Source: Armatimonadota bacterium
GTDB taxonomy: Bacteria > Armatimonadota > Fimbriimonadia > Fimbriimonadales > Fimbriimonadaceae
Length of the DNA: 34,093 nt
Reading direction: 5' to 3'
Assembly (NCBI GenBank): GCA_018268335.1
Contig: JAFDWT010000103.1
Location: forward strand, 1 to 34,093
Of the stretch, positions 1-34,093 are shown piece after piece. The translations under genes and the position numbers were made by a program. Under the pieces are notes generated by a model. It saw only the letters and a program-made list of their open reading frames with translations. It did not search any database and had not been told where the DNA came from. Every line of letters starts with the position of its first letter. Position 1 is the stretch's first letter.

Positions 1-495
1 ATCAGCGCAGGGGCCTTGCGGGTGAAAAAGGAGTGGCAGTCATTGGAGGAGCTGGTCGGAAGCGCGCTGGCCCGGACCGAGACCCTGTTGGCTGGACACT
101 CGGTCCACGTCGACCTTGCGCCAGACTTGCCGTTGATGGAGTTGGACGGAGTCCTGGTCGAGCAGGTTTTTGTGAACCTTCTAGAGAACGCCTCGCGGCA
201 CACATCGCCGGGCACCAGCGTCTGGATCGACGCCCGGCCAGTCGGGCAGGCTGTCCGAATCGCGTTCTCAAACGACGGCCCAACTCTCACGCAGCATGAA
301 ATCGCCAACGTCTTCGAGAAGTTTTCTCAAGGCAATCAGGCCAGCGGCGGATCAGGGCTTGGCTTAGCGATCTGCAAGGCGATCGTCGAAGCCCATGGCG
401 GCACGATCAGCGCCGAGCCAAGGGAAAGCCAGGGTGTCCGGTTCCTCATCGACCTGCCCGCTAGTAAAGGCGCACCGGAGGTGCCCGTTGGCTGA
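1..495 (+). CDS. kdpD: Sensor histidine kinase KdpD, C-terminal fragment
   Basis: This is the 3' end of a histidine kinase gene; the reading frame is open to the left edge, so the true start lies outside the window. About 164 residues are visible. They contain the end of the dimerisation region ('EWQSLEELVGSAL'), the N box ('NLLENASRHT'), a short G1-like stretch ('FSNDGPTL'), an F box ('VFEKFSQ') and the G2 box ('GSGLGLAICKAIVEAHGG'). The pattern 'LPLMELDGVLVEQVFVNLLENA' is split by family-typical residues and is characteristic of KdpD, the membrane kinase that responds to potassium limitation and osmotic stress and phosphorylates KdpE. The kdpE start lies inside its last codons, so the pair is translationally coupled. 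The kdpFABC pump genes are not in the window and may lie upstream. Family assignment is firm; function in this organism is inferred. Confidence 0.9.
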   Translation: MSAGALRVKKEWQSLEELVGSALARTETLLAGHSVHVDLAPDLPLMELDGVLVEQVFVNLLENASRHTSPGTSVWIDARPVGQAVRIAFSNDGPTLTQHEIANVFEKFSQGNQASGGSGLGLAICKAIVEAHGGTISAEPRESQGVRFLIDLPASKGAPEVPVG

Positions 496-1183
496 GCCCA
501 TGCGGATCGTCGTCATCGAGGACGAGCGGGCGATATCCCGCCTCATCAGAACTGGCTATGGCCGTGACGAGGCTGAGGTGCTCGACGCCACCACCGGCGA
601 GGCCGGAATGCAACTGGTGGCCAAGGCGAACCCAGATGTCGTGCTCCTGGACCTTGGCCTCCCCGACATGGACGGCCAGGAAGTCTGCCGCAGGCTGCGC
701 GAGTGGACCGACGTGCCGATCATCGTGGTCTCAGCCCGCGGGAAAGAGGACGACAAGGTGCTCGCCCTCGACAACGGGGCCGACGACTACATGACCAAGC
801 CTTTCGGTCTCAACGAATTGCAGGCCCGAGTGCGGGCCTCGTTGCGCCACTCCCTCCGCCGCAAAGCGGCTGAGCCAGAGCCGGTCTTCCGGTCTGGCGA
901 CATTGAAGTTGACCTCCAGGCCCGCGTCGTGCGCCTAACTGGAGAGGAGGTCCGTCTGACTGCCACTGAGTACAAACTGCTCGCCATGCTCGTCCGGCAT
1001 GCCGGCATGGTCTTGACCCACAAGCAGATCCTCGAGGAAGTTTGGGGCCCCGCCTATGTCGACGAACTGCACTACCTTCGGGTCTACATGGGCCAGCTAC
1101 GCCACAAACTCGAACCCGACCCCACGCGCCCAAGGCTCTTACGGACAGAAAGCGGTGTCGGCTATCGGCTGATGGCCGAATAG
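488..1183 (+). CDS. kdpE: Response regulator KdpE (OmpR family)
   Basis: This is a 231-residue response regulator, close to the usual length of KdpE. The receiver domain (about residues 5-120) is complete: acidic pair E11-D12, phospho-acceptor D55 in 'VVLLDLGLPDMDG', S82, and K104 in 'TKPF'. A winged-helix DNA-binding domain follows (about 135-231), ending with the KdpE-like 'LHYLRVYMGQLRHKLE' and 'GVGYRLM'. It is expected to activate the potassium-uptake operon kdpFABC after phosphorylation by KdpD. I chose the TTG at 488 because GGAGGTG (477-483) sits just in front of it; an ATG at 500 is in frame but 16 bases away from that site. The start overlaps the kdpD stop by 8 bases. Family identity is secure, while the exact start is less so. 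Confidence 0.93.
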   Translation: MAEPMRIVVIEDERAISRLIRTGYGRDEAEVLDATTGEAGMQLVAKANPDVVLLDLGLPDMDGQEVCRRLREWTDVPIIVVSARGKEDDKVLALDNGADDYMTKPFGLNELQARVRASLRHSLRRKAAEPEPVFRSGDIEVDLQARVVRLTGEEVRLTATEYKLLAMLVRHAGMVLTHKQILEEVWGPAYVDELHYLRVYMGQLRHKLEPDPTRPRLLRTESGVGYRLMAE

Positions 1184-2985: not shown

Positions 2986-3933
2986 TTAGGCTTTCTTGCG
3001 TCGCTTGGCGAACGCCGCGACACCCAGGCCGAGCAGGGCCATGGTCGACGGCTCGGGCACAGCCTTGACGTCCCAGCCGACGGCATCGCCGACCGAGATT
3101 TCCGGAGTGCCATAGTTGACCAGCGTGTTTGGCGTCGCAAAGGCGTCTTGGACGTTCGGGCCACTGCCTGCCCAGTCAGCGTAGTCGCCACCGTTGTTGC
3201 CATTGTTGAAGCTGCGGATGTTGGTCACGCCGCCATCAACTGAGAAATAGTTGCCGACTGAGTTGGTGCTCAGAGTCGACCGGACGCCAGCGCCTGTCCA
3301 GCGGAAAAGATCCTCGACACCAACCCGAGTCGTCGAACCGATGCGAGATCCAGGCCCGCCGATTCCCATGGCTTCGTCGGCCTCGTGCTGGGCGACAGCG
3401 TGCAGGTCATATTTGTTAGCCTGCGGGCCTACCGACCGCGTGAAGCAAATGCCAGCGTTCAGGAAGAGCGTGGCGTCGAAGCCATCCGGCGTTGCCCCCA
3501 CGTTGTAGCCCAGCGCACGGGCGCTGGCCCACGTCATATTGACCTTTTTCTCGGCACCAGTTGCGTCCAAGAATGGCATAGCTGCGGCCAACGATGCGAC
3601 CGCCGTATTGTCCAAAGCCGACTTCTTGTCGGCCGTCAAAGCCGCCTTGACGTTGGCATAGCTGTCGACAGCAAGCCAAGTGCTGCTGCCACCCAGGCCA
3701 CTGCCAGAGTTCAGAATCTGCAGCTTGACTGTCACGTTGTCGGTGTAAATGCCCTTCAGTTCGGCCAACGCAGCGTTTATGGTGGCTTTCTGATCCGCAC
3801 TAAAGTCGGCGGCCGAGCCGTCGTTGCCAAACGTGACGCTGAAATCAAGCGCGTGGGCGTTGGCCGCCAGGGCCAATCCGGTGCCCGCAACGAACGCACA
3901 GCGGAAGCATCGAGAGAATCTCTTGGAATTCAT
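2986..3933 (-). CDS. PEP-CTERM metalloprotease-like protein (NF038122-like), copy 2
   Basis: This 315-residue paralogue of the neighbouring gene has the same order of parts. There is a signal peptide (about 1-28, ending 'AANAHA'), a domain with 'AVAQHEADEAMGIGG' (H183, E184, E187), and a C-terminal sorting tag 'VPEPSTMALLGLG' followed by a hydrophobic helix and 'KRRKKA'. Shared blocks such as 'SALDNTAVASL', 'YTDNVTV' and 'GGDYADW' show that the two genes arose by duplication. The protein is predicted to be exported and processed by an exosortase. The start at 3933 is supported by AGGAG 11 bases upstream. Its GC content is more like the rest of the window than that of copy 1. The HExxE signature suggests metal binding, but substrate and activity are unknown. 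Confidence 0.82.
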   Translation of the reverse strand: MNSKRFSRCFRCAFVAGTGLALAANAHALDFSVTFGNDGSAADFSADQKATINAALAELKGIYTDNVTVKLQILNSGSGLGGSSTWLAVDSYANVKAALTADKKSALDNTAVASLAAAMPFLDATGAEKKVNMTWASARALGYNVGATPDGFDATLFLNAGICFTRSVGPQANKYDLHAVAQHEADEAMGIGGPGSRIGSTTRVGVEDLFRWTGAGVRSTLSTNSVGNYFSVDGGVTNIRSFNNGNNGGDYADWAGSGPNVQDAFATPNTLVNYGTPEISVGDAVGWDVKAVPEPSTMALLGLGVAAFAKRRKKA

Positions 3934-24965: not shown

Positions 24966-24995
24966 ATTATAGACCAGTCAAGTCGCGTTTGTACA
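24966..24995 (-). promoter_or_regulatory. Probable gltBD promoter
   Basis: On the minus strand TATAAT (24966-24971) is preceded, 18 bases away, by the -35-like TGTACA (24990-24995). The leader would be about 45 bases. The -10 box and the following bases (TATAATGCTC) are identical to those of the LacI operon promoter near 16856. Confidence 0.55.
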
Positions 24996-25060
24996 GGTTT
25001 TTTCCTCCTCCCTTTCCTGGAAGTGACCAGTCCGTCCGTCTACATCGAACTCCAGCCAAG

Positions 25061-27856
25061 ATGTCGGACATGCGACCACACAGCGACGGACTTCTTGGGT
25101 TTGATCCCGCCGCGCACGGCCTGAGCGAGCCCCTCGGGAAACAGCTACAGCTGGTCGACAGGCTCTTAGGCGAGGTCGTCGCCGAGTTCGAGGGCCCGGA
25201 GTTCGTGGCCCTCGTGCGCCGGTTACAGGAACTGTCGCTAAACAACCCAGAAGCTGATCCGCTGGAAGCCATTCCTGAACTCCGCGACCCCCAGAAAGCC
25301 GAGCGGGTCGCTCGCGCCTACACTGTCCTTTTCCAACTGGTCAACCACGCCGAGCAGGTCGAGATCGTCCGCGTCAATCGGTCACGCGAACGTCGCCCCG
25401 AATCGATCCGCGAAGTCATCCGCACATTGGCGGAGCGGGGCCAATCCGTCGACGACATCGTCGAAACGCTCCACCGCCTGTTCGTCTGCCCCACCTTGAC
25501 CGCCCACCCCACCGAAGCCAGGCGCCGGGCTGTTCTCGATCGGCTCAACGCCATTTGTGGTTCTCTCAGCCGCCTGGGCCAGCCGCGCAACCTCGTCGAT
25601 TTGGAGCGACCGCTGGACGACAAAGAGTGGGATCTCACCGACCTGCGCCGCAACCTGATCAACCTTTGGCAAACGCCGGAGATCAACAGCGACTCGCTGC
25701 ACGTCAGCGACGAGGTCGCCAACGCTCTCTACTATTTCGAGTCGACGATCATGCGCGTGGCCTCCTGGCTGCGCCGCGACATCGAGATGGCGCTCAAGGA
25801 ATTGGCGGGCCACGAGGTCGCCGTGCCCCGTGTTCTGAGCTACCGGTCGTGGGTCGGCGGAGACCGGGACGGCAACCCCTACGTCACCGCCGACGTGACT
25901 TGGCAGACGATCCTGCAACACCGCAGACTCGCCATCAGCGCCTACCGTGACATTGCCGAGAGACTCCGCAGCGAGCTCACCCAAGACGCCAAGGACTTGG
26001 ACAAGAAGCACCCGTTCTGGGCCATGTCACGCCATGCCTCGCTGGCCGCCGACCTGGACGGAGACACTGTACGACGACACGCCCAAGAGCCCTTCGCCCT
26101 CTATCTGGCGGCCCTGTCGTCCACCTTGTCCGGCGAGTTGACTGCCTTGTCGCGCATGGAACAGGGGGTTGGCCCGACCCGGGTCTGGCTCGACGAAGCG
26201 ACACTGCTGCGGGACCTGGAATGCCTGCAGGACGCCGTCGCCTGCTGCGGCGGCGAGCTTGCGGCCAGGACCGGTCTTCTTGCTCGGTTTGTCCGGCAAG
26301 CGCAAATCTTCGGAGTCAGCCTTGCTGCCTTGGACATCCGCCAACACTCCGAAGTCCATGCCCCCACCGTCGGCGCCCTGCTCGCGCAGGCGGGCAGGAT
26401 CAGGTCGGCCAAAGAATATGTCGAGGCCGACGAAGAGCAAAAGGTCGAGTGGTTGACCCTCGAACTGCTAGATAGACGGCCCTTGGTCGGCCCCAGTTGG
26501 CGCTCCAACGCCAAGGACGAGGCGGTGCGGGATGTGTTCCGGACGATCAAACACGCCCACGACACCTTCGGCAAAGACTGCGTCCGTTGCCACGTCGTCA
26601 GCATGACGCACGGGGTGAGCGACCTTCTGGAAGTGCTCGTGCTCGCCAAGGACGCAGGCCTCGTCGAACACGTCAAAGGCCATCCCTCCGGTTCTCTGGA
26701 CATCGTCCCACTGTTGGAGACCATCGACGACCTGAAAGCCAGTCGCCAATTGGTGGAGTCCCTCTGGTCCAACCCAGCTTATGCCGGATACCTCAAAGGC
26801 CGGAACATGCGGCAAGAGGTCATGTTGGGCTACAGCGACAGCAGCAAGGACGGCGGCTACTTGGCTGCCAACTGGGAGTTGCACGTGACCCAGAGTGAAC
26901 TGGCCGCCGCCGCCCGCGAGAACGGTGTCCGGCTCCGCCTGTTCCACGGCCGCGGTGGCACCGTCGGGCGCGGTGGCGGCCGGGCGAACCGGGCCATCCT
27001 CAGCCAACCGGCGGGGTCGTTTGACGGCCAAATCAGGTTCACCGAACAGGGTGAGGTCGTTTCTTTCCGCTACGGCCTCCGCCCCATCGCCCATCGGCAC
27101 TTGGAGCAGATCATCTCTGCCTCGATGCTGGCCGCCAGCCACGGCGGCCCGGCCAAAGAAGAGCCGAGGCCCTGGTGGGACGCCATGGACGAGCTCGCCG
27201 CCGCCTCAATGGCCTGCTACCGCCGGTTGGTCCACGAAGACCCGGAGTTCTGGCCGTTTTATCTCCGTTCGACCCCGATCCGCGCCGTCGGCCGTATGAG
27301 TATCGCGAGCCGCCCGGTCTCGCGCCCCGGTAAGGCCGACCTCGGTCTGGACGGCCTGCGTGCGATCCCCTGGAACTTCGCATGGGTGCAAAGCCGCCTG
27401 CTTGTGCCTGGTTGGTTTGGGCTCGGTACAGCCATCGAGAGCTTTCTCTCTGCTCACGCCGACGGGCTCGAAAGGCTGCGTGAGATGCACACCAACTGGC
27501 CGTTCTTTCAGACGATCGTCGAGAACGTCGAGTTGGAGCTTATGCGAACGCACTTGCCCACAGCCGAACTCTATTCTCGCCCCGGCGACGACGGCGCGAC
27601 TGGGCGGATCATGGGTTTGATTGAACGGGAGTTCCAACGGACCGTCCGAGCGGTCACCGGCATCCTGGGCACGAACCAGTTGATGGAAGGAGCTAAGATG
27701 GTCCGGAACACCATCGCGTTCCGCAACCCAGTCGTCTTCCCGCTCAACATGCTGCAAGCGTCGCTGCTCCGCCGTGTCCAGGCGGACGAGGCCTATGAAG
27801 GTGCCCTATTGCAAAGCGTGGCCGGAGTCGCAGCCGGCATGCAAAGCACCGGCTAG
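25061..27856 (+). CDS. ppc: Phosphoenolpyruvate carboxylase
   Basis: This 931-residue enzyme adds bicarbonate to phosphoenolpyruvate to form oxaloacetate, refilling the citric-acid cycle when intermediates are drawn off for amino acids. Key motifs are complete: 'TAHPTEARRR' with the catalytic His, 'SYRSWVGGDRDGNPYVT', 'LDIRQHSEVH', 'GYSDSSKDGGYLAANWEL' and the mobile loop 'HGRGGTVGRGGG'. Length is normal for the bacterial family. I chose ATG 25061; an open frame extends to 24989, but the added residues look unlike the family, and no ribosome-binding site favours them. The gene is divergent from gltBD and shares its stop (CTAG) with the convergent regulator gene. Confidence 0.97.
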   Translation: MSDMRPHSDGLLGFDPAAHGLSEPLGKQLQLVDRLLGEVVAEFEGPEFVALVRRLQELSLNNPEADPLEAIPELRDPQKAERVARAYTVLFQLVNHAEQVEIVRVNRSRERRPESIREVIRTLAERGQSVDDIVETLHRLFVCPTLTAHPTEARRRAVLDRLNAICGSLSRLGQPRNLVDLERPLDDKEWDLTDLRRNLINLWQTPEINSDSLHVSDEVANALYYFESTIMRVASWLRRDIEMALKELAGHEVAVPRVLSYRSWVGGDRDGNPYVTADVTWQTILQHRRLAISAYRDIAERLRSELTQDAKDLDKKHPFWAMSRHASLAADLDGDTVRRHAQEPFALYLAALSSTLSGELTALSRMEQGVGPTRVWLDEATLLRDLECLQDAVACCGGELAARTGLLARFVRQAQIFGVSLAALDIRQHSEVHAPTVGALLAQAGRIRSAKEYVEADEEQKVEWLTLELLDRRPLVGPSWRSNAKDEAVRDVFRTIKHAHDTFGKDCVRCHVVSMTHGVSDLLEVLVLAKDAGLVEHVKGHPSGSLDIVPLLETIDDLKASRQLVESLWSNPAYAGYLKGRNMRQEVMLGYSDSSKDGGYLAANWELHVTQSELAAAARENGVRLRLFHGRGGTVGRGGGRANRAILSQPAGSFDGQIRFTEQGEVVSFRYGLRPIAHRHLEQIISASMLAASHGGPAKEEPRPWWDAMDELAAASMACYRRLVHEDPEFWPFYLRSTPIRAVGRMSIASRPVSRPGKADLGLDGLRAIPWNFAWVQSRLLVPGWFGLGTAIESFLSAHADGLERLREMHTNWPFFQTIVENVELELMRTHLPTAELYSRPGDDGATGRIMGLIEREFQRTVRAVTGILGTNQLMEGAKMVRNTIAFRNPVVFPLNMLQASLLRRVQADEAYEGALLQSVAGVAAGMQSTG

Positions 27857-28566
27857 GCCGTGAAGTGCCGGACATTGGCCGCCACGTCGACCTGCCCGGT
27901 GGCACGGTATCCGCGCCCGGGTTCGGTGACGATGTACCGCGGCTGCGACGGCTCGAGCTCGATCTTCTGGCGCAGTTGGCCGACAAAGACGCGCAGGTAG
28001 TGGGTCTCCTCAGCATACGCCGCACCCCACACTTTGCCCAGCAGATCACGGTGGCCGACCACCTGGCCTTCGTTCCGCACGAGGGTCCAAAGGAGTTTGA
28101 ACTCCGTCGGCGTCAAGTGGACTTCGCGGCCACGAACCATCACGCTCTTGCTTGTGGGGTCCACCACGAGCCTGTCTTCGTCCACCGGGTGACCTTCGAT
28201 GTACTCCTCACCGCGACGGCGTCGCAGCGTGACCCGGATGCGGGCAAGGAGCTCGCCGAGGGCAAACGGCGTGGTCAAATAGTCGTCAGCACCAGACTCG
28301 AGGGCGGCCACGATCTCAGTCGTTCCCGACCGATCGGACACGACGAGCAACACGGCTTGCGACTTCTGTCGCAGGATTTTCAGGCGCTGCGTGTCAGGCA
28401 GGTCGAGGATCCGGGTCGGCAAGACGACAACGTCCGGGTTGACGCTGTCCAAAGTGTCCAATGTTTGTGGCAGGTCGGCAGCTTCGACAACGGCGTAGCC
28501 TGACCGCTCCAATGCGGACGCAACGCGCCTTCTCTCTGCCGATTCTGGTTCGACGACCAATACCAT
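27853..28566 (-). CDS. KdpE-like regulator with degenerate receiver domain
   Basis: This 237-residue OmpR-type regulator has an intact winged-helix DNA-binding domain (about 140-237). It is close in style to KdpE ('LTPTEFKLLWTLVRNEG', 'EETHYLRVFVGQLRQKIELE', 'GRGYRA'). The receiver domain (1-115) keeps its fold pattern but lacks the phosphorylation residues: the acidic pair is E6-P7, the phospho-acceptor position is P50 ('VVVLPTRILDLP'), and the conserved Lys is T99 ('LTTPF'). S77 is retained. It therefore belongs to the atypical, aspartate-less receivers and cannot be controlled by ordinary phosphotransfer. No histidine kinase is adjacent. GGAG lies 7 bases upstream of the chosen ATG 28566. 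It is divergent from mscL and convergent with ppc. Confidence 0.85.
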   Translation of the reverse strand: MVLVVEPESAERRRVASALERSGYAVVEAADLPQTLDTLDSVNPDVVVLPTRILDLPDTQRLKILRQKSQAVLLVVSDRSGTTEIVAALESGADDYLTTPFALGELLARIRVTLRRRRGEEYIEGHPVDEDRLVVDPTSKSVMVRGREVHLTPTEFKLLWTLVRNEGQVVGHRDLLGKVWGAAYAEETHYLRVFVGQLRQKIELEPSQPRYIVTEPGRGYRATGQVDVAANVRHFTA

Positions 28567-28609
28567 GCTCTTCTCCGAAACAGTTTCCACCGGGCTTATC
28601 ACTCCGGCC

Positions 28610-28627
28610 AACCGGTACCGTCCGGTT
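28610..28627. promoter_or_regulatory. Inverted repeat upstream of the KdpE-like regulator
   Basis: AACCGG - TACCGT - CCGGTT is a 6-bp inverted repeat 44 bases before the regulator's ATG, within the divergent gap to mscL. It could be an operator, possibly for the regulator itself, or an mRNA hairpin. Confidence 0.3.
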
Positions 28628-28677
28628 AGACCGCTCTCCTATTGGTCTTGTTCCATAGCTTTTTCGTCGGAATCTAG

Positions 28678-28689
28678 TTGACCCGTCAA
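28678..28689. promoter_or_regulatory. Palindrome TTGACCCGTCAA upstream of mscL
   Basis: TTGAC - CC - GTCAA lies 50 bases before the mscL ATG. Its left half also resembles a -35 box, but no -10 box with proper spacing was found. It is a candidate regulator site for mscL. Confidence 0.3.
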
Positions 28690-28738
28690 GCTTTTGGGAG
28701 GGCTGACAATCCTGCGGGGAACCAGGTACCGTCGCGGC

Positions 28739-29170
28739 ATGGGAATGGTCCAGGAATTCCGCGACTTCGCCGTCAAGGGCAACGTGATCGATCTGGCCGT
28801 CGGTGTGATCATCGGCGGTGCCTTCGGCAAGATCGTCGATTCGATGGTCAAGGACGTCGTCATGCCGCCCATTGGCATGGTGCTCGGCAAGGTCAATTTC
28901 AACGACATGTACGTGTTGCTGTCGACCGAGAAGGGCTCCAGCTTCGCTTCCTTGGCCGACGCCCAAAAGGCTGGCGCGCCAGTCTTGGCTTACGGCGCCT
29001 TCATCAACAACATCATCAGTTTTCTGATCCTGGCCTTTATTGTCTTCTTGATGGTCAAAGCAATCAACTCCGCCAAGAAGGCCGAGCCAGAAGTGGCCGC
29101 CACGCCAGAACCGACGCCAAGCGAAGCCCTACTTTCCGAAATTCGTGACTTGCTGAAGAAGGGCAGCTGA
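28739..29170 (+). CDS. mscL: Large-conductance mechanosensitive channel
   Basis: This 143-residue channel opens when membrane tension rises and lets solutes out during hypo-osmotic shock. The first helix contains 'DLAVGVIIGGAFGKIVDSMVKD', shown here in the family's typical form, and 'MPPIGMVLGKVNF' follows. The second helix is 'FINNIISFLILAFIVFLMVKAIN'. The C-terminal part is a charged helix after a Pro-rich linker ('PEPTPSEALLSEIRDLLKK'). Length and pattern match MscL well. I chose ATG 28739; 28745 is also possible, and the frame reaches 28694 without family-like residues. Its neighbour on the other strand is a KdpE-like regulator, which may control it. Confidence 0.96.
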   Translation: MGMVQEFRDFAVKGNVIDLAVGVIIGGAFGKIVDSMVKDVVMPPIGMVLGKVNFNDMYVLLSTEKGSSFASLADAQKAGAPVLAYGAFINNIISFLILAFIVFLMVKAINSAKKAEPEVAATPEPTPSEALLSEIRDLLKKGS

Positions 29171-29227: not shown

Positions 29228-30073
29228 ATGGCACAGACTTTTGACCAACTCGTGCGCGCGTTCAACGGCGCGTCCAACCTGCCCCAACCCTCCAAGTCGC
29301 CTTTGCGCCTGTCGGCCTTGCTGGAGTCCGGAGACCCTTCGCCAGCTGAAATCGAGGCGATCGTCCACTCCGACCCCGCGCTGACGGCCGGGCTGCTCAA
29401 GACAGCCTCTGCCGCGGCCTTCGGTCGGACGCGCCCCGTCGGCTCGATCCGCGAGGCCGTAATGGTCTTGGGCTTCCGCGCGCTCCGTTCCGTTGCCATT
29501 GCCCTTTGGACACAGGCCCTTGTGTGTGAAGGTAAGCACAAGTCTCGCCTAGATTTGGTCCGGTTCAGCACGGGCAGCTACTTCACCGGCATCCTCGCCA
29601 GTGAGCTGAGCAGCGTCTCGCCAGAGCCAAAAGGCGAGGGGGCCTGGTCGAGCGAGGAAGTCTTCGCGTTCGGAGTCCTCGGTCGACTAGGAGTCGGTCT
29701 TCTGTCTCTCTTGGCCCCCGACGAGTTCGACCGTGTCTATGCCAAGGCTGAGTCGGACAAGACGTCCCTGGAGACTGCTTTCCAAGCCCTCCATGGTCGG
29801 TCATTGCACGAATTGGCATTGGTCGGCGCTCGCTCTATGGCTCTGCCTGAGTCTCTCTGCGCGGCCTTGGAGACGCTCAGCACCGGGCAGGGTCTGCCGG
29901 GTGCCGTAGCCGCGACCTCCTTCGTCACAACTGCCCTCCAGGTCGCCGACTCCAATGGCATGGGCATTGGGAAGTGGGATGTGTCCCTGGACTTGCCAGA
30001 TGATCACGAACTGGCCGAACTCATCGAGCGGGCCAAGGCCTCGTCAACTGGCACTTTGCTCAAGTCGGCCTAG
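29228..30073 (+). CDS. HDOD-domain protein
   Basis: This 281-residue protein is built around an HDOD domain (about residues 20-215), a relative of HD phosphohydrolases that lacks their metal-binding residues and usually acts in signalling. Typical stretches are 'IVHSDPALTAGLLKTASAAAFG' split by normal variation, 'VGSIREAVMVLGFRALRSVAIALW' and 'EEVFAFGVLGRLGVGLL'. No output or other catalytic domain is seen. HDOD proteins are reported to influence motility, biofilm and stress responses in other bacteria, but its role here is unknown. It starts 57 bases after mscL, directly behind a stable hairpin, and has no visible ribosome-binding site. The 3' end overlaps argH on the other strand by 14 bases. 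Confidence 0.85.
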   Translation: MAQTFDQLVRAFNGASNLPQPSKSPLRLSALLESGDPSPAEIEAIVHSDPALTAGLLKTASAAAFGRTRPVGSIREAVMVLGFRALRSVAIALWTQALVCEGKHKSRLDLVRFSTGSYFTGILASELSSVSPEPKGEGAWSSEEVFAFGVLGRLGVGLLSLLAPDEFDRVYAKAESDKTSLETAFQALHGRSLHELALVGARSMALPESLCAALETLSTGQGLPGAVAATSFVTTALQVADSNGMGIGKWDVSLDLPDDHELAELIERAKASSTGTLLKSA

Positions 30074-31268
30074 ACTCTTCGTCCGCCAACCTGGCTGCGA
30101 CGGTGCGATAGGCCTCCCTGAACGACACGCCGGTCTCGACGACCAGGCGGTACGCCTCCTCAGTCGCTTGGATGGGCCCCTGCACAGCCATCGCGCACAC
30201 CTCTTCGTCGAACTCGACGGCGGGGAGCGCGGCGACCATCACCTGGCAACACGCTTCTGTCCTGTCCAGGACACGGAACAGTGGCGCTTTGATGAGCTGG
30301 AGGTCGCGATGATAACCCGAAGTCATCTTCGCCGTCGTCGCCAGAACCGCCATCAGATCGCCCTGCGCTTGCCCGCTATGTCCGCGCACCAACTCGAAAA
30401 CGTCAGGGTTCCGCTTCTGCGGCATGATCGACGAGCCCGTGGTGAATGCCGCCGGCAGACGGACGAACCCAAATTCCTGGCTGTTGTAAAGGCACAGATC
30501 AGCAGCCAGCCGGCCAAGGTCTTGCAAAAGCAATGTGCACTGGAACGCAAGGTCGGCCTCGGCCTTGCCGCGGCTCAGCTGAGGAGCCGTGACCGGATCG
30601 TGCACCTTGTCAAAACCAAGCTCTTCTGTCGTTTGTTCTCGGTCTAGTTTCAAGCCCGGCGTCCCATATCCGGCAGCGCTTCCAAGCGGATTGACAGACA
30701 GGCGGCGCCGAGATGCGGCCACGCCCTGGCCCGAATCCCGCACTTCGGTGGCAAAGCCACCCGCCCACAGCGCGACCGAACTGGGCATCGCCCTCTGCAT
30801 GTGTGTGTAGCCAGGCAGAGGCTTGGCACCCTGTCTTTGCGCCAAGCTGTCGAGTGCTTCAGCGACTTGCCCCGCCAGTCCACAGATCTCGGCGACACGG
30901 TCGATTAAGTAGAGCCGGAGCGCCACCAAAACTTGGTCATTGCGCGACCGACCCAGATGCACGCGACCACCGAGGTCGTCCAGCTTTTCAACCAAACGGT
31001 TCTCAATGGCGGTATGGCAGTCTTCTTCTTCCAGGGTGACGTTCCACTCGCCAGTCGCATGCGATGCACCAATTTCAAGTAATGCCCGTTCCAGAGCTGT
31101 GAACTGCGCGGCCGTCAAATATCCTTGTTTCGACAGCATCCGCGCATGGGCGATCGAAGCACGGATGTCGTATTCAACCAGTCTGTCGTCCAGCACATGG
31201 TCGTCACCCACGGTGAACCGGAGCACCGCCTCGTTCATCGGCACGCCCTTGTCCCAAAGCCTACGCAT
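30060..31268 (-). CDS. argH: Argininosuccinate lyase
   Basis: This 402-residue enzyme splits argininosuccinate into arginine and fumarate, the last step of arginine synthesis. Family motifs are present: 'LWDKGV' at the start, 'DIRASIAHARMLSKQGYL', 'VHLGRSRNDQV', 'PGYTHMQRAMP' and the signature 'GSSIMPQKRNPDV' with the catalytic Ser loop. It is shorter than the E. coli enzyme (457 residues) because the sequence ends soon after 'GVSFREAYRTVAARLA', lacking the last C-terminal stretch. The N-terminus resembles the shorter enzymes of Bacteroidetes. The ATG at 31268 overlaps the deacetylase stop by 8 bases. It is the last visible gene of the arginine operon. Confidence 0.95.
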   Translation of the reverse strand: MRRLWDKGVPMNEAVLRFTVGDDHVLDDRLVEYDIRASIAHARMLSKQGYLTAAQFTALERALLEIGASHATGEWNVTLEEEDCHTAIENRLVEKLDDLGGRVHLGRSRNDQVLVALRLYLIDRVAEICGLAGQVAEALDSLAQRQGAKPLPGYTHMQRAMPSSVALWAGGFATEVRDSGQGVAASRRRLSVNPLGSAAGYGTPGLKLDREQTTEELGFDKVHDPVTAPQLSRGKAEADLAFQCTLLLQDLGRLAADLCLYNSQEFGFVRLPAAFTTGSSIMPQKRNPDVFELVRGHSGQAQGDLMAVLATTAKMTSGYHRDLQLIKAPLFRVLDRTEACCQVMVAALPAVEFDEEVCAMAVQGPIQATEEAYRLVVETGVSFREAYRTVAARLADEESRPT

Positions 31269-32322
31269 GTGCTGCAAACTCCTTCACCAATTGGTTGTAA
31301 AACATCAGTCCTTCCTCGAGCTCGCTTTCCAGAACATATTCATCCGCCGTGTGCGATCTTGCCGTGTCGCCCGGCCCACATTTGATCGCTGGCCAACCGG
31401 CGAAAAAGACCTGGTCGCTCATCGTGCGACTGCCAAAGGTGCCACGTCCTCCAGCAGACAGGGCGGCACGAACAACCACGGCATCCTCAGGACACTGATA
31501 AGGCTGCAACCGAATCGAGCGGGCCCTTATTTCTCCCGACACATGCGCCCGCAAAAGTTCGACGATCTCCTCATGTAACACGCCCGGAACTGAACGGATG
31601 TCAAGCACACACTGCGCCACGTCAGACACCTGGTTCCTCGCTTCGGCCGCCGACAAGGAGGTCGGTTGCAAGGTCGTCTTGCCCAGCTGTGGATGCTCGG
31701 GCCCTAGCGACACGCCTTGCAAGGCGACGAGATCAGCCGCAAGTCCCCACACCGGATTGACCGCCCCCAACTCCGCCGCGTTGGCCGCATGGCAAGCCTG
31801 CCCGCGAGAGACCAACTCCAACACGAGCATCCCCTTCTGCGAAGTGCCCACGGCAAGCCCAGTCGGCTCACCGACAACAATGCCCTCTGGTCGATACCCT
31901 GACTGCTGGAGCCGAGGCCAAACCACCTCGGTGCCCCGCCCTCCCGTCTCCTCTTCTTGCACCAAGGTCAACGTGACCTCGCAAGGCCCGCCCGACTTTG
32001 CCACTTCAAGAAGAGCAAGGGCCATGCAGGCGGCCGAGGCTTTCGCGTCGTTCGAACCGAGCCCAATAACCTTGTCCCCGTCGCGCCGGATCTTCCAAGG
32101 ATCATCGGTCCATGAAGGCGTCGGCGGCACAGTGTCCAAATGGGTGTTAAACAGCAACTTCGGCCCGCTGCCAGCCCGGGCGACGACATTGTTCTCCCAG
32201 CGCTCGACCCAAACGCCATGGTCGCGAAAAAAAGCCTCGGCCACATCGGCCACCGCCGTCTCGTCGTGCGAGACCGACGGCGTTTCGACCAACGCCCGAT
32301 GGAATTCGGCGACCAAACCCAA
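31261..32322 (-). CDS. argE: M20 deacetylase of the arginine pathway (ArgE-like, probably acting on N-acetylcitrulline)
   Basis: This 353-residue zinc amidohydrolase of the M20 family carries metal and catalytic residues in 'FNTHLDTVPP', 'GLGSNDAKAS', 'VQEEETGGRGTE', 'VVGEPTGL' and a C-terminal 'RSHTADEYV'. In the usual pathway ArgE removes acetate from acetylornithine. Here the adjacent transcarbamylase looks like the N-acylornithine type, so the more likely substrate is N-acylcitrulline, as in Xanthomonas. The TTG start at 32322 is supported by GGAGGA 6 bases upstream, inside the end of argB. The operon order and the overlap with argH support a role in arginine synthesis; the exact substrate is inferred. 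Confidence 0.85.
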   Translation of the reverse strand: MGLVAEFHRALVETPSVSHDETAVADVAEAFFRDHGVWVERWENNVVARAGSGPKLLFNTHLDTVPPTPSWTDDPWKIRRDGDKVIGLGSNDAKASAACMALALLEVAKSGGPCEVTLTLVQEEETGGRGTEVVWPRLQQSGYRPEGIVVGEPTGLAVGTSQKGMLVLELVSRGQACHAANAAELGAVNPVWGLAADLVALQGVSLGPEHPQLGKTTLQPTSLSAAEARNQVSDVAQCVLDIRSVPGVLHEEIVELLRAHVSGEIRARSIRLQPYQCPEDAVVVRAALSAGGRGTFGSRTMSDQVFFAGWPAIKCGPGDTARSHTADEYVLESELEEGLMFYNQLVKEFAAHA

Positions 32323-32324
32323 CC

Positions 32325-33218
32325 CTATCCTCCGCCTTTGCCTTCTAGCGACTCGACGCTGCGGACAATCATCGTCCCGCTCCCTTCGTTGGTGAAAACC
32401 TCTGTCAGCAAGGCGTCCGCCGGCGCATGGCCGATCACATGGACGCGCTCAACACCACCTTCAATGGCTCGCCTGATCGAAGCCGCCTTGGGGTTCATCC
32501 CCGCGGCCAACACACCGCTGGCCTCCAGGTCTTGCAATCCAGCCAGATCCGTGTAGCTGACGAGCGACGAAGGGTCAGCAGGATCGCGAAGGATGCCCGG
32601 CGCACCGGTCATCGAAACCAGCTTGTCCGCCCACAGGGCGACCGCCAGCTCGGCGGCGACAGTATCGGCGTTCACATTCAGGGCCTGTCCGTCCGCGTCA
32701 GCGCAGATTGGGCTGACGACTGGCATGATTCCGGCGGCAAGAAGTGTGTTCAAAACACTCGCGTCCACTTTCTGAATGTCGCCGACCATGCCAAAGTCCG
32801 CGCCCTTCTTGGCCGGTCGCTTCTTGGCGGTCACCAGCCCGGCGTCCATTCCCGAGACGCCAACGGCGGTCAAGCCGATCTGCCGGCAGACCGCAAGGAT
32901 CTCCGCCCGGACAGTGCCGTTCAGCGCGAAGACCATCGCCTCCAGCATGCCGCTGTCGGTGACGCGACGGCCTTCGATGAACTGACTTGCGTGCCCCAAG
33001 CGCTTACCGGTCTCGGTCGCCTGTGGCCCACCACCGTGTACCAAGACGATCTTGATCCCAAGTTGGGCAAGGAGCGAGACCTGGCGCAAGACGTTGAACG
33101 TCGACTCTCGGGCCAAAAACGCCTCGCCACCGACCTTGATGACAAAGGTCTTGCCTTGGTACAAGCGCAGGTAGGGCGTCGCCTCCAAGAGGGCTTTCAT
33201 GGTTTGGTTGCTGGGCAT
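32325..33218 (-). CDS. argB: Acetylglutamate kinase
   Basis: This 297-residue kinase phosphorylates N-acetylglutamate, the second step of arginine synthesis. Motifs of the amino-acid kinase fold are clear: 'FVIKVGGEAFL' for ATP, 'VLVHGGGPQATETGKRLG' with the glycine-rich loop, 'RRVTDSGMLEAM', 'LNVNADTVAAELAVALWADKLVSMT', split by family-normal residues, and 'GGVERVHVIGH' near the C-terminus. The ATG at 33218 lies 1 base after the transcarbamylase stop, and the next gene starts 2 bases after its own stop. A second ATG (33200) is possible. No N-terminal arginine-sensing helix is obvious, so feedback control cannot be judged. Confidence 0.95.
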   Translation of the reverse strand: MPSNQTMKALLEATPYLRLYQGKTFVIKVGGEAFLARESTFNVLRQVSLLAQLGIKIVLVHGGGPQATETGKRLGHASQFIEGRRVTDSGMLEAMVFALNGTVRAEILAVCRQIGLTAVGVSGMDAGLVTAKKRPAKKGADFGMVGDIQKVDASVLNTLLAAGIMPVVSPICADADGQALNVNADTVAAELAVALWADKLVSMTGAPGILRDPADPSSLVSYTDLAGLQDLEASGVLAAGMNPKAASIRRAIEGGVERVHVIGHAPADALLTEVFTNEGSGTMIVRSVESLEGKGGG

Positions 33219-33219
33219 A

Positions 33220-34093
33220 TCAGTGGGAGTCCTCGGCTAGCGCGGCCAGCACGGCCTTCTGCACGTGCAACCGGTTGGCGGCTTGCTGGACGACCACACT
33301 GCGCGGACCGTCCAACACTTGGTCAGATACTTTCACATTGCGCCTGACGGGCAGGCAGTGCATGAACTTCGCGTCGGGAGCGGCGTTGTGGAACCATGGT
33401 TCGTCGACAGTCCAGTCGGCAAACTGCTTGCGCAGTTCGTCGTCCTGCTCCGACTGGCCATACAGCTGCGGCGCCGCCCAAGACTTGCAATACATGACGT
33501 GGGCACCGTCGAGCGCAGCGTCGCGATCGTCCGTCTCGATAACAGTGCCACCGCCGGCAAGGGCCGCCGCGTCGATTCTGGCCCGACCCTGCGCCGGAAG
33601 CGCGTAGGGAGCGGGACGCAATATGCGGACATCCATGCCCCTTCTCGCTGCCATTGAGGCGGCAGCCAGCGGTACCGCATACGCCAGCGCTTTAGGGTGG
33701 TATGCCCAGCTCAACACGAACCGACCATTTGGTGGAATCTCTAGGTCGTCAAGAGTCTTCCAATCGGCGAGAGCTTGGCACGGATGGTCGCTGGCCGATT
33801 CCATGTTCACAAACGGTACCGGGCTCAGACCGGTGATTCGCTTGAACAGTGTCTCGCCAAGGTCTTCATCCAAAACCTTGCCTGCAGCAAAACAGCGGAC
33901 TGCGAGAATATCGCAGTACTGTCCAAGCACTGGAAAGGCTTCGTTGATATGCTCCTGCGCCGCGCCGTCCATGCGGACACCGTCGCGGGTCTCCAGTTGC
34001 CAACTCCCGGCGCCGGGCTGGATCACGAAACTCGAGCCCCCAAGATGCGCGACTGCCGTCTGGAACGATGCCAGGGTGCGCAGCGACGGGTTC
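33220..34093 (-). CDS. argF': N-acylornithine carbamoyltransferase (ArgF'), N-terminus outside window
   Basis: This transcarbamylase transfers the carbamoyl group to an ornithine derivative. About 290 residues are visible and the frame is open to the window edge; the first residues seen are 'NPSLRTLASF', the phosphate-binding loop. Instead of the STRT motif of ordinary ornithine transcarbamylases it has the NPS(L/M)RT form, and 'MDGAAQEHINEAFPVLGQY', 'VLSWAYHPKALAYAVP', 'MYCKSWAAP', 'HCLPVRRNVKVSDQVLDGP' and 'ANRLHVQKAVLAAL'. These match the acetylornithine and succinylornithine enzymes of Xanthomonas and Bacteroides. The position I align with the acyl-selecting Glu92 of the Xanthomonas enzyme is Gln, so the acyl group is uncertain. 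It heads the visible argF'-argB-argE-argH operon. A frame beginning at GTG 34026 is too short and cuts the phosphate loop. Confidence 0.88.
   Translation of the reverse strand, partial: NPSLRTLASFQTAVAHLGGSSFVIQPGAGSWQLETRDGVRMDGAAQEHINEAFPVLGQYCDILAVRCFAAGKVLDEDLGETLFKRITGLSPVPFVNMESASDHPCQALADWKTLDDLEIPPNGRFVLSWAYHPKALAYAVPLAAASMAARRGMDVRILRPAPYALPAQGRARIDAAALAGGGTVIETDDRDAALDGAHVMYCKSWAAPQLYGQSEQDDELRKQFADWTVDEPWFHNAAPDAKFMHCLPVRRNVKVSDQVLDGPRSVVVQQAANRLHVQKAVLAALAEDSH

Follow-up and report, generated by a model that had tools for sequence, protein, structure and literature searches.

A KdpE-type regulator with an aspartate-less receiver encoded divergently from mscL in Fimbriimonadaceae

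The gene at positions 27853–28566 (minus strand) encodes an OmpR/PhoB-type regulator of the KdpE clade with an aspartate-less receiver. We concluded that the protein is a KdpE descendant that functions as a regulator and is not the product of a decaying gene. The gene lies in a window of 34,093 nucleotides from an Armatimonadota bacterium of the family Fimbriimonadaceae, and an earlier note, prepared from the sequence alone, gave its coordinates and reading frame correctly; translation yields 237 amino acids and a stop. We lean towards the reading that it is a phosphorylation-independent dimeric regulator that acts on the intergenic region shared with mscL, with its activity set by its abundance or by a ligand or partner.

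Both domains were recognized above the Pfam cut-offs; Response_reg (PF00072) scored 50.2 bits (cut-off 30.2), and the C-terminal winged helix, Trans_reg_C (PF00486), scored 83.4 bits (cut-off 26.2). The Pfam search gave no match to PF21695 (GlnR_1st, GlnR-type atypical regulator). The closest solved structure was KdpE (4kny, E 1e-47), and the recognition helix, HYLRVFVGQLRQK, resembles that of KdpE. The regulator scored 180.3 bits, below the NCBIfam KdpE equivalog cut-off of 325 bits, but the canonical KdpE in the window (261.5) also fell below it, so this comparison discriminates only weakly. In a maximum-likelihood tree, the regulator and its orthologue fell inside a KdpE-type clade of 68 rows (support 100/100). 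The position of the pair within this clade had a support of 93/38 and its sister group was not settled; the stem of the pair was long (1.67) and its tips were short (0.19 and 0.09).

The pseudo-receiver domain comprises residues 1–117 (28216–28566, minus strand) and aligns with KdpE without gaps. Its pocket positions were read against the canonical KdpE encoded in the same window (488–1183, plus strand; Pfam and NCBIfam), which stands beside the 3' end of kdpD (16–495) at the contig edge. The catalytic quintet, E-D/D/S/K in that KdpE, is E6-P7/P50/S77/T99 in the regulator and E-P-P-S-K in its orthologue. The canonical D-D-D-T/S-K pocket is absent, and proline occupies both the phospho-acceptor (P50) and the second acidic position (P7). 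Among the five residues of the quintet, two are retained, namely, Glu6 at acidic-1, where Glu also occurs in canonical KdpE-like relatives, and Ser77; the coupling/switch residue Tyr96 is also kept. The earlier note described all phosphotransfer residues but one as changed, which was confirmed for P7, P50, and T99 and was an overstatement with regard to Glu6 and Ser77. Its central claim, that the usual mode of phosphorylation is closed to the protein, is supported; P50 and P7 are also present in the orthologue, and selection is purifying.

Approximately 145 KdpE-like relatives, drawn from named species as well as the phylum, all kept the acidic-2 Asp, the phospho-Asp, and the Lys wherever the column was covered. 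Judged from this alignment, the changes in the receiver go far beyond chance. Fifty receiver columns show at least 80% conservation among the relatives, and 20 of these were changed in both orthologues; the corresponding figure was 2 of 34 in the winged-helix DNA-binding domain (residues ~135–223; 27898–28164, minus strand). The latter domain is intact by Pfam match and alignment, as had been noted previously.

The sole orthologue was found in the other examined species of the genus (G001 contig 7; L138:9053–9772) and is approximately 80% identical. Searches of the family (85 genomes), order (113), and phylum (291) did not reveal any further orthologue, and the pair scored 514–516 bits in the phylum search versus 216 bits for the next best match. 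The orthologue has E6-P7, P50, and the PTRIL-x-LPD segment in common with the regulator, which argues that the key receiver changes are older than the split of the two species. E6 and P7 were preserved across synonymous codon changes, and the DNA of codons 45–53 (28408–28434; 27 nucleotides that include the P50 codon) is identical between the species; elsewhere, synonymous divergence is approximately 0.6–0.7 per site. The dN/dS ratios of the two species (Nei-Gojobori) were approximately 0.13 for the receiver, 0.05 for the DNA-binding domain, 0.14 for ppc, and 0.11 for mscL, and are rough because dS was approximately 1.4–1.8, with synonymous sites near saturation. The receiver underwent a single remodelling and was held afterwards, and its dN/dS ratio argues that the gene is not decaying.

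Position 99 differs between the two species, with Lys99 (AAG) in the orthologue and Thr99 (ACG) in the window, one base apart. Of the two substitutions singled out for comparison in the earlier note, Pro50 is kept in the one orthologue, whereas Thr99 is not. Thr99 appears to be private to the window species and not a family trait, the loss of Lys alone being recent, and a one-base sequencing or assembly error may have occurred at this position. Orthologues that retain both Asp and Lys had been regarded as a sign of recent loss in a decaying gene. The Lys was indeed retained; however, the orthologue carries Pro50 and Pro7, and selection was purifying. Gene decay was rejected on the basis of dN/dS and the conserved gene order. 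It is very improbable that the regulator is a silenced or decaying leftover of a KdpE paralogue: Thr99 represents a further loss in the window species that is absent from the orthologue, but both copies have intact frames and low dN/dS in both domains, and the gene order and leader are conserved.

The remodelled β3-α3 segment (residues 50–58; 28393–28419, minus strand) reads PTRILDLPD in the alignment, replacing D-L-G-L-P-D-x-D-G, and is the same in both species except for residue 55, which is Asp in the window regulator and Glu in the orthologue. The loop after P50 has also lost both the D+4 Pro and the D+8 Gly. In an AlphaFold2 model of the regulator (29-row alignment, mean pLDDT 81, pTM 0.51, relative domain placement unreliable), the receiver forms a complete (βα)5 fold with a short helix at residues 51–54, where canonical receivers have the β3-α3 loop. 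The main rival to the dimer reading concerns this region. On that reading, DNA binding may be switched by a small molecule or a protein partner bound by the remodelled loop and pocket, in the manner of JadR1 or RedZ. The near-invariance of the loop and the identical DNA of codons 45–53 are consistent with ligand control, and pseudo-receivers that bind ligands often use the α2, β3-α3, and α3 regions (PMC12632262). However, the conservation of the loop may be merely structural, no ligand, biosynthetic cluster, or partner gene adjoins the regulator, and JadR1 and RedZ belong to antibiotic pathways, whereas the regulator does not. We regard ligand control as a tentative possibility. We are doubtful of a more specific history in which a kinase-driven K+ regulator became, in this genus, a kinase-independent, ligand- or ion-gated controller of mscL with a new proline-centred pocket.

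The regulator has no adjacent kdpD or kdpABC and adjoins mscL and ppc instead. The divergent neighbour mscL (28739–29170, plus strand) encodes a large-conductance mechanosensitive channel (Pfam MscL, 156 bits; NCBIfam MscL above the cut-off). The convergent ppc (24989–27856, plus strand; Pfam and NCBIfam) encodes phosphoenolpyruvate carboxylase and overlaps the stop of the regulator by 4 bases. The gene order argH, HDOD gene, mscL, divergent regulator, convergent ppc, gltB, and gltD-like gene is common to both species. Neither the regulator nor a related regulator was found beside mscL at 28 other mscL loci in other genera of the family. The HDOD gene (29228–30073) is located downstream of mscL, and another genus of the family has the same arrangement in several of its genomes (five loci), so the mscL-HDOD pair is older than the arrival of the regulator. 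The earlier note suggested mapping bound sites near mscL and ppc; mscL and the regulator's own promoter are sensible targets, whereas ppc is linked to the regulator by convergent adjacency only.

The intergenic region between the regulator and mscL (28567–28738; L138:8889–9052 in the other species) is strongly conserved in its regulator-proximal half. The conserved block is TAGGAGAGCGGTCTAACCGG(A)CGGTACCGGTTGGCCGG. A conserved near-palindrome, CTAACCGG-(A)CGGTA-CCGGTTGG followed by CCGG (28604–28629), is a candidate operator or 5'-leader hairpin, and its spacer differs by one base between the species. A further conserved element, TTGAY-GG-GTCAA, is located upstream (28678–28689). Two single-base indels break the reading frame of the block between the species; it is therefore noncoding and would be a DNA site or an RNA leader. 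A search for AACCGG-N4-7-CCGGTT returned 4 and 3 sites versus 4 and 14 in the controls and did not reveal a regulon, and a search for CGGTACCGGTTGGCCGG with 2 mismatches allowed showed no excess over the control. The leader did not match Rfam at either threshold, and a sigma-70 scan found no promoter. The energy of the leader hairpin was unexceptional (z approximately -1.4 to -1.5), and the folds of the two species differ outside the central hairpin.

The modelled receiver matched the KdpE receiver 1zh2 in Foldseek with a TM score of 0.89 (target length) and an rmsd of 2.1, and the best full-length matches were KdpE-DNA complexes. The dimer face of KdpE comprises Ile88, Leu91, Ala110, and Val114 and the pairs Asp96-Arg118 and Glu107-Arg111 (PMC4773095). 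All of these have matching counterparts in the regulator (V86, L89, A108, and V112; D94-R116 and E105-R109). The interface is not identical because Lys87 of KdpE corresponds to Ile85, the sole clear change in α4. We propose that the regulator takes no phosphate from a histidine kinase and that its receiver acts, most likely, as a preformed dimerization module through the α4-β5-α5 face. The regulator would bind DNA without phosphorylation, in analogy to ChxR and HP1043, presumably as a constitutive dimer. The probable DNA target is the intergenic region shared with mscL, through which the regulator may act on its own gene and on mscL. Its activity may be set by the amount produced, with probable autoregulation, or, alternatively, by a ligand or partner on the remodelled β3-α3 side. 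If the regulator controls mscL, it would be a regulator of an osmotic safety valve.

This dimer reading is supported by P7 and P50, which both orthologues carry and all of the approximately 145 relatives lack, and by purifying selection. The long stem and short tips of the pair, the receiver fold, the dimer-face residues, the gene order, and the conserved upstream block also support it, as do 15 solved pseudo-receiver domains that are dimers without phosphorylation (PMC12632262). The reading is weakened by its basis in two species only, by Ile85 at the interface, and by Phe101 at the K+2 position; in CheY, the model receiver, Phe at K+2 favors inactive conformations (PMC12632262). The near-palindrome without a regulon above the control count and the rough dN/dS ratios also weaken it. 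Between the ligand control and constitutive binding that had been suggested for this protein, we favored phosphorylation-independent binding as a dimer and placed ligand control second.

Pseudo-receivers account for approximately 6% of bacterial receivers, and their switching mechanisms have been called a mystery (Bourret 2025, PMC12632262). OmpR-type aspartate-less receivers (ALRs) numbered 609, or 2% of that architecture (Maule 2015, PMC4395418). In that survey, approximately 77% of ALRs had Glu, Asn, Ser, Gly, or Ala at the phospho-site and 21 sequences had Pro; acidic-1 was usually kept (65%), acidic-2 was usually lost, and the Lys position was basic in 70% (PMC4395418). By sequence, the regulator fits the ALR/pseudo-receiver class in every respect tested, as a member with a rare substitution from the KdpE lineage. 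It shares with the class a replaced phospho-Asp, a kept acidic-1 and lost acidic-2, the Ser/Tyr coupling pair, and an OmpR-type output, and differs in the Pro at the phospho-site, which is rare among ALRs. Neither its lineage nor its mscL context was described in the literature found on ALRs. ChxR of Chlamydia and HP1043 of Helicobacter are similarly OmpR/PhoB-type regulators without Asp phosphorylation and are dimeric and DNA-binding without it (PMC3960148, PMC12632262). In contrast, their lineages and substitutions differ from those of the regulator, ChxR has Glu at the site, and the dimer of the regulator is only inferred. RitR of Streptococcus is also an OmpR-type ALR, and RitR structures were among the Foldseek matches (24% identity). 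The redox-type control proposed in the earlier note, a disulphide switch such as that of RitR or Hp1021, has a negligible probability here. A linker cysteine confers redox dimerization on RitR, whereas inspection of the regulator and its orthologue found no cysteine in either protein, which excludes thiol chemistry.

KdpE (4kny and 4kfc of E. coli, and the copy at 488–1183) shares with the regulator its domain order, approximately 40% identity, the recognition helix, the dimer-face residues, and its clade. In contrast, the regulator lacks the phospho-Asp and acidic-2, has lost the Lys in the window copy, has a remodelled loop and no adjoining KdpD, and lies beside mscL instead of kdp. KdpA of the window species is encoded on another contig (C72, 44048–45721), and its kdpDE genes are at the edge of the window contig (16–1183). 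The second species has no KdpA match and no orthologue of the window kdpE and nonetheless keeps the regulator. The window KdpE, put forward as a direct comparison, is thus a useful yardstick with all residues present, but is not conserved as a partner. A second KdpE-type regulator is present in both species (G000 contig 96, 721–6184, and G001 contig 8). In the window genome, it is accompanied by a sensor kinase, an amino-acid/potassium-type permease, and a TrkA-like protein, and this locus is apparently a separate K+ system.

Phosphorylation at another site (Asp55, Asp58, or Ser/Thr by a protein kinase) or heterodimerization with a canonical KdpE-type paralogue is unlikely. Asp58 and several Ser/Thr residues are common to both orthologues, GlnR provides a precedent for Ser/Thr modification (PMC12632262), and the second KdpE-type protein occurs in both species, with an adjoining sensor kinase in the window genome. 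However, acidic-2 is lost, Asp55 is Glu in the orthologue, and the window KdpE is missing from the other species. The co-occurrence of a Pro-type pseudo-receiver and a canonical KdpE-type paralogue in one genome represents a natural experiment, which is completed by the second species with its pocket Lys and by one obvious target, mscL, on the shared intergenic region.

Elsewhere in the window, an arginine cluster (30060–34026, minus strand) encodes an N-acetylornithine carbamoyltransferase-like protein (283 bits, cut-off 288), ArgB, an M20 deacetylase, and ArgH, which suggests an acetylated arginine route. Two adjoining genes (1801–2793 and 2986–3933, minus strand) encode PEP-CTERM secreted proteins.
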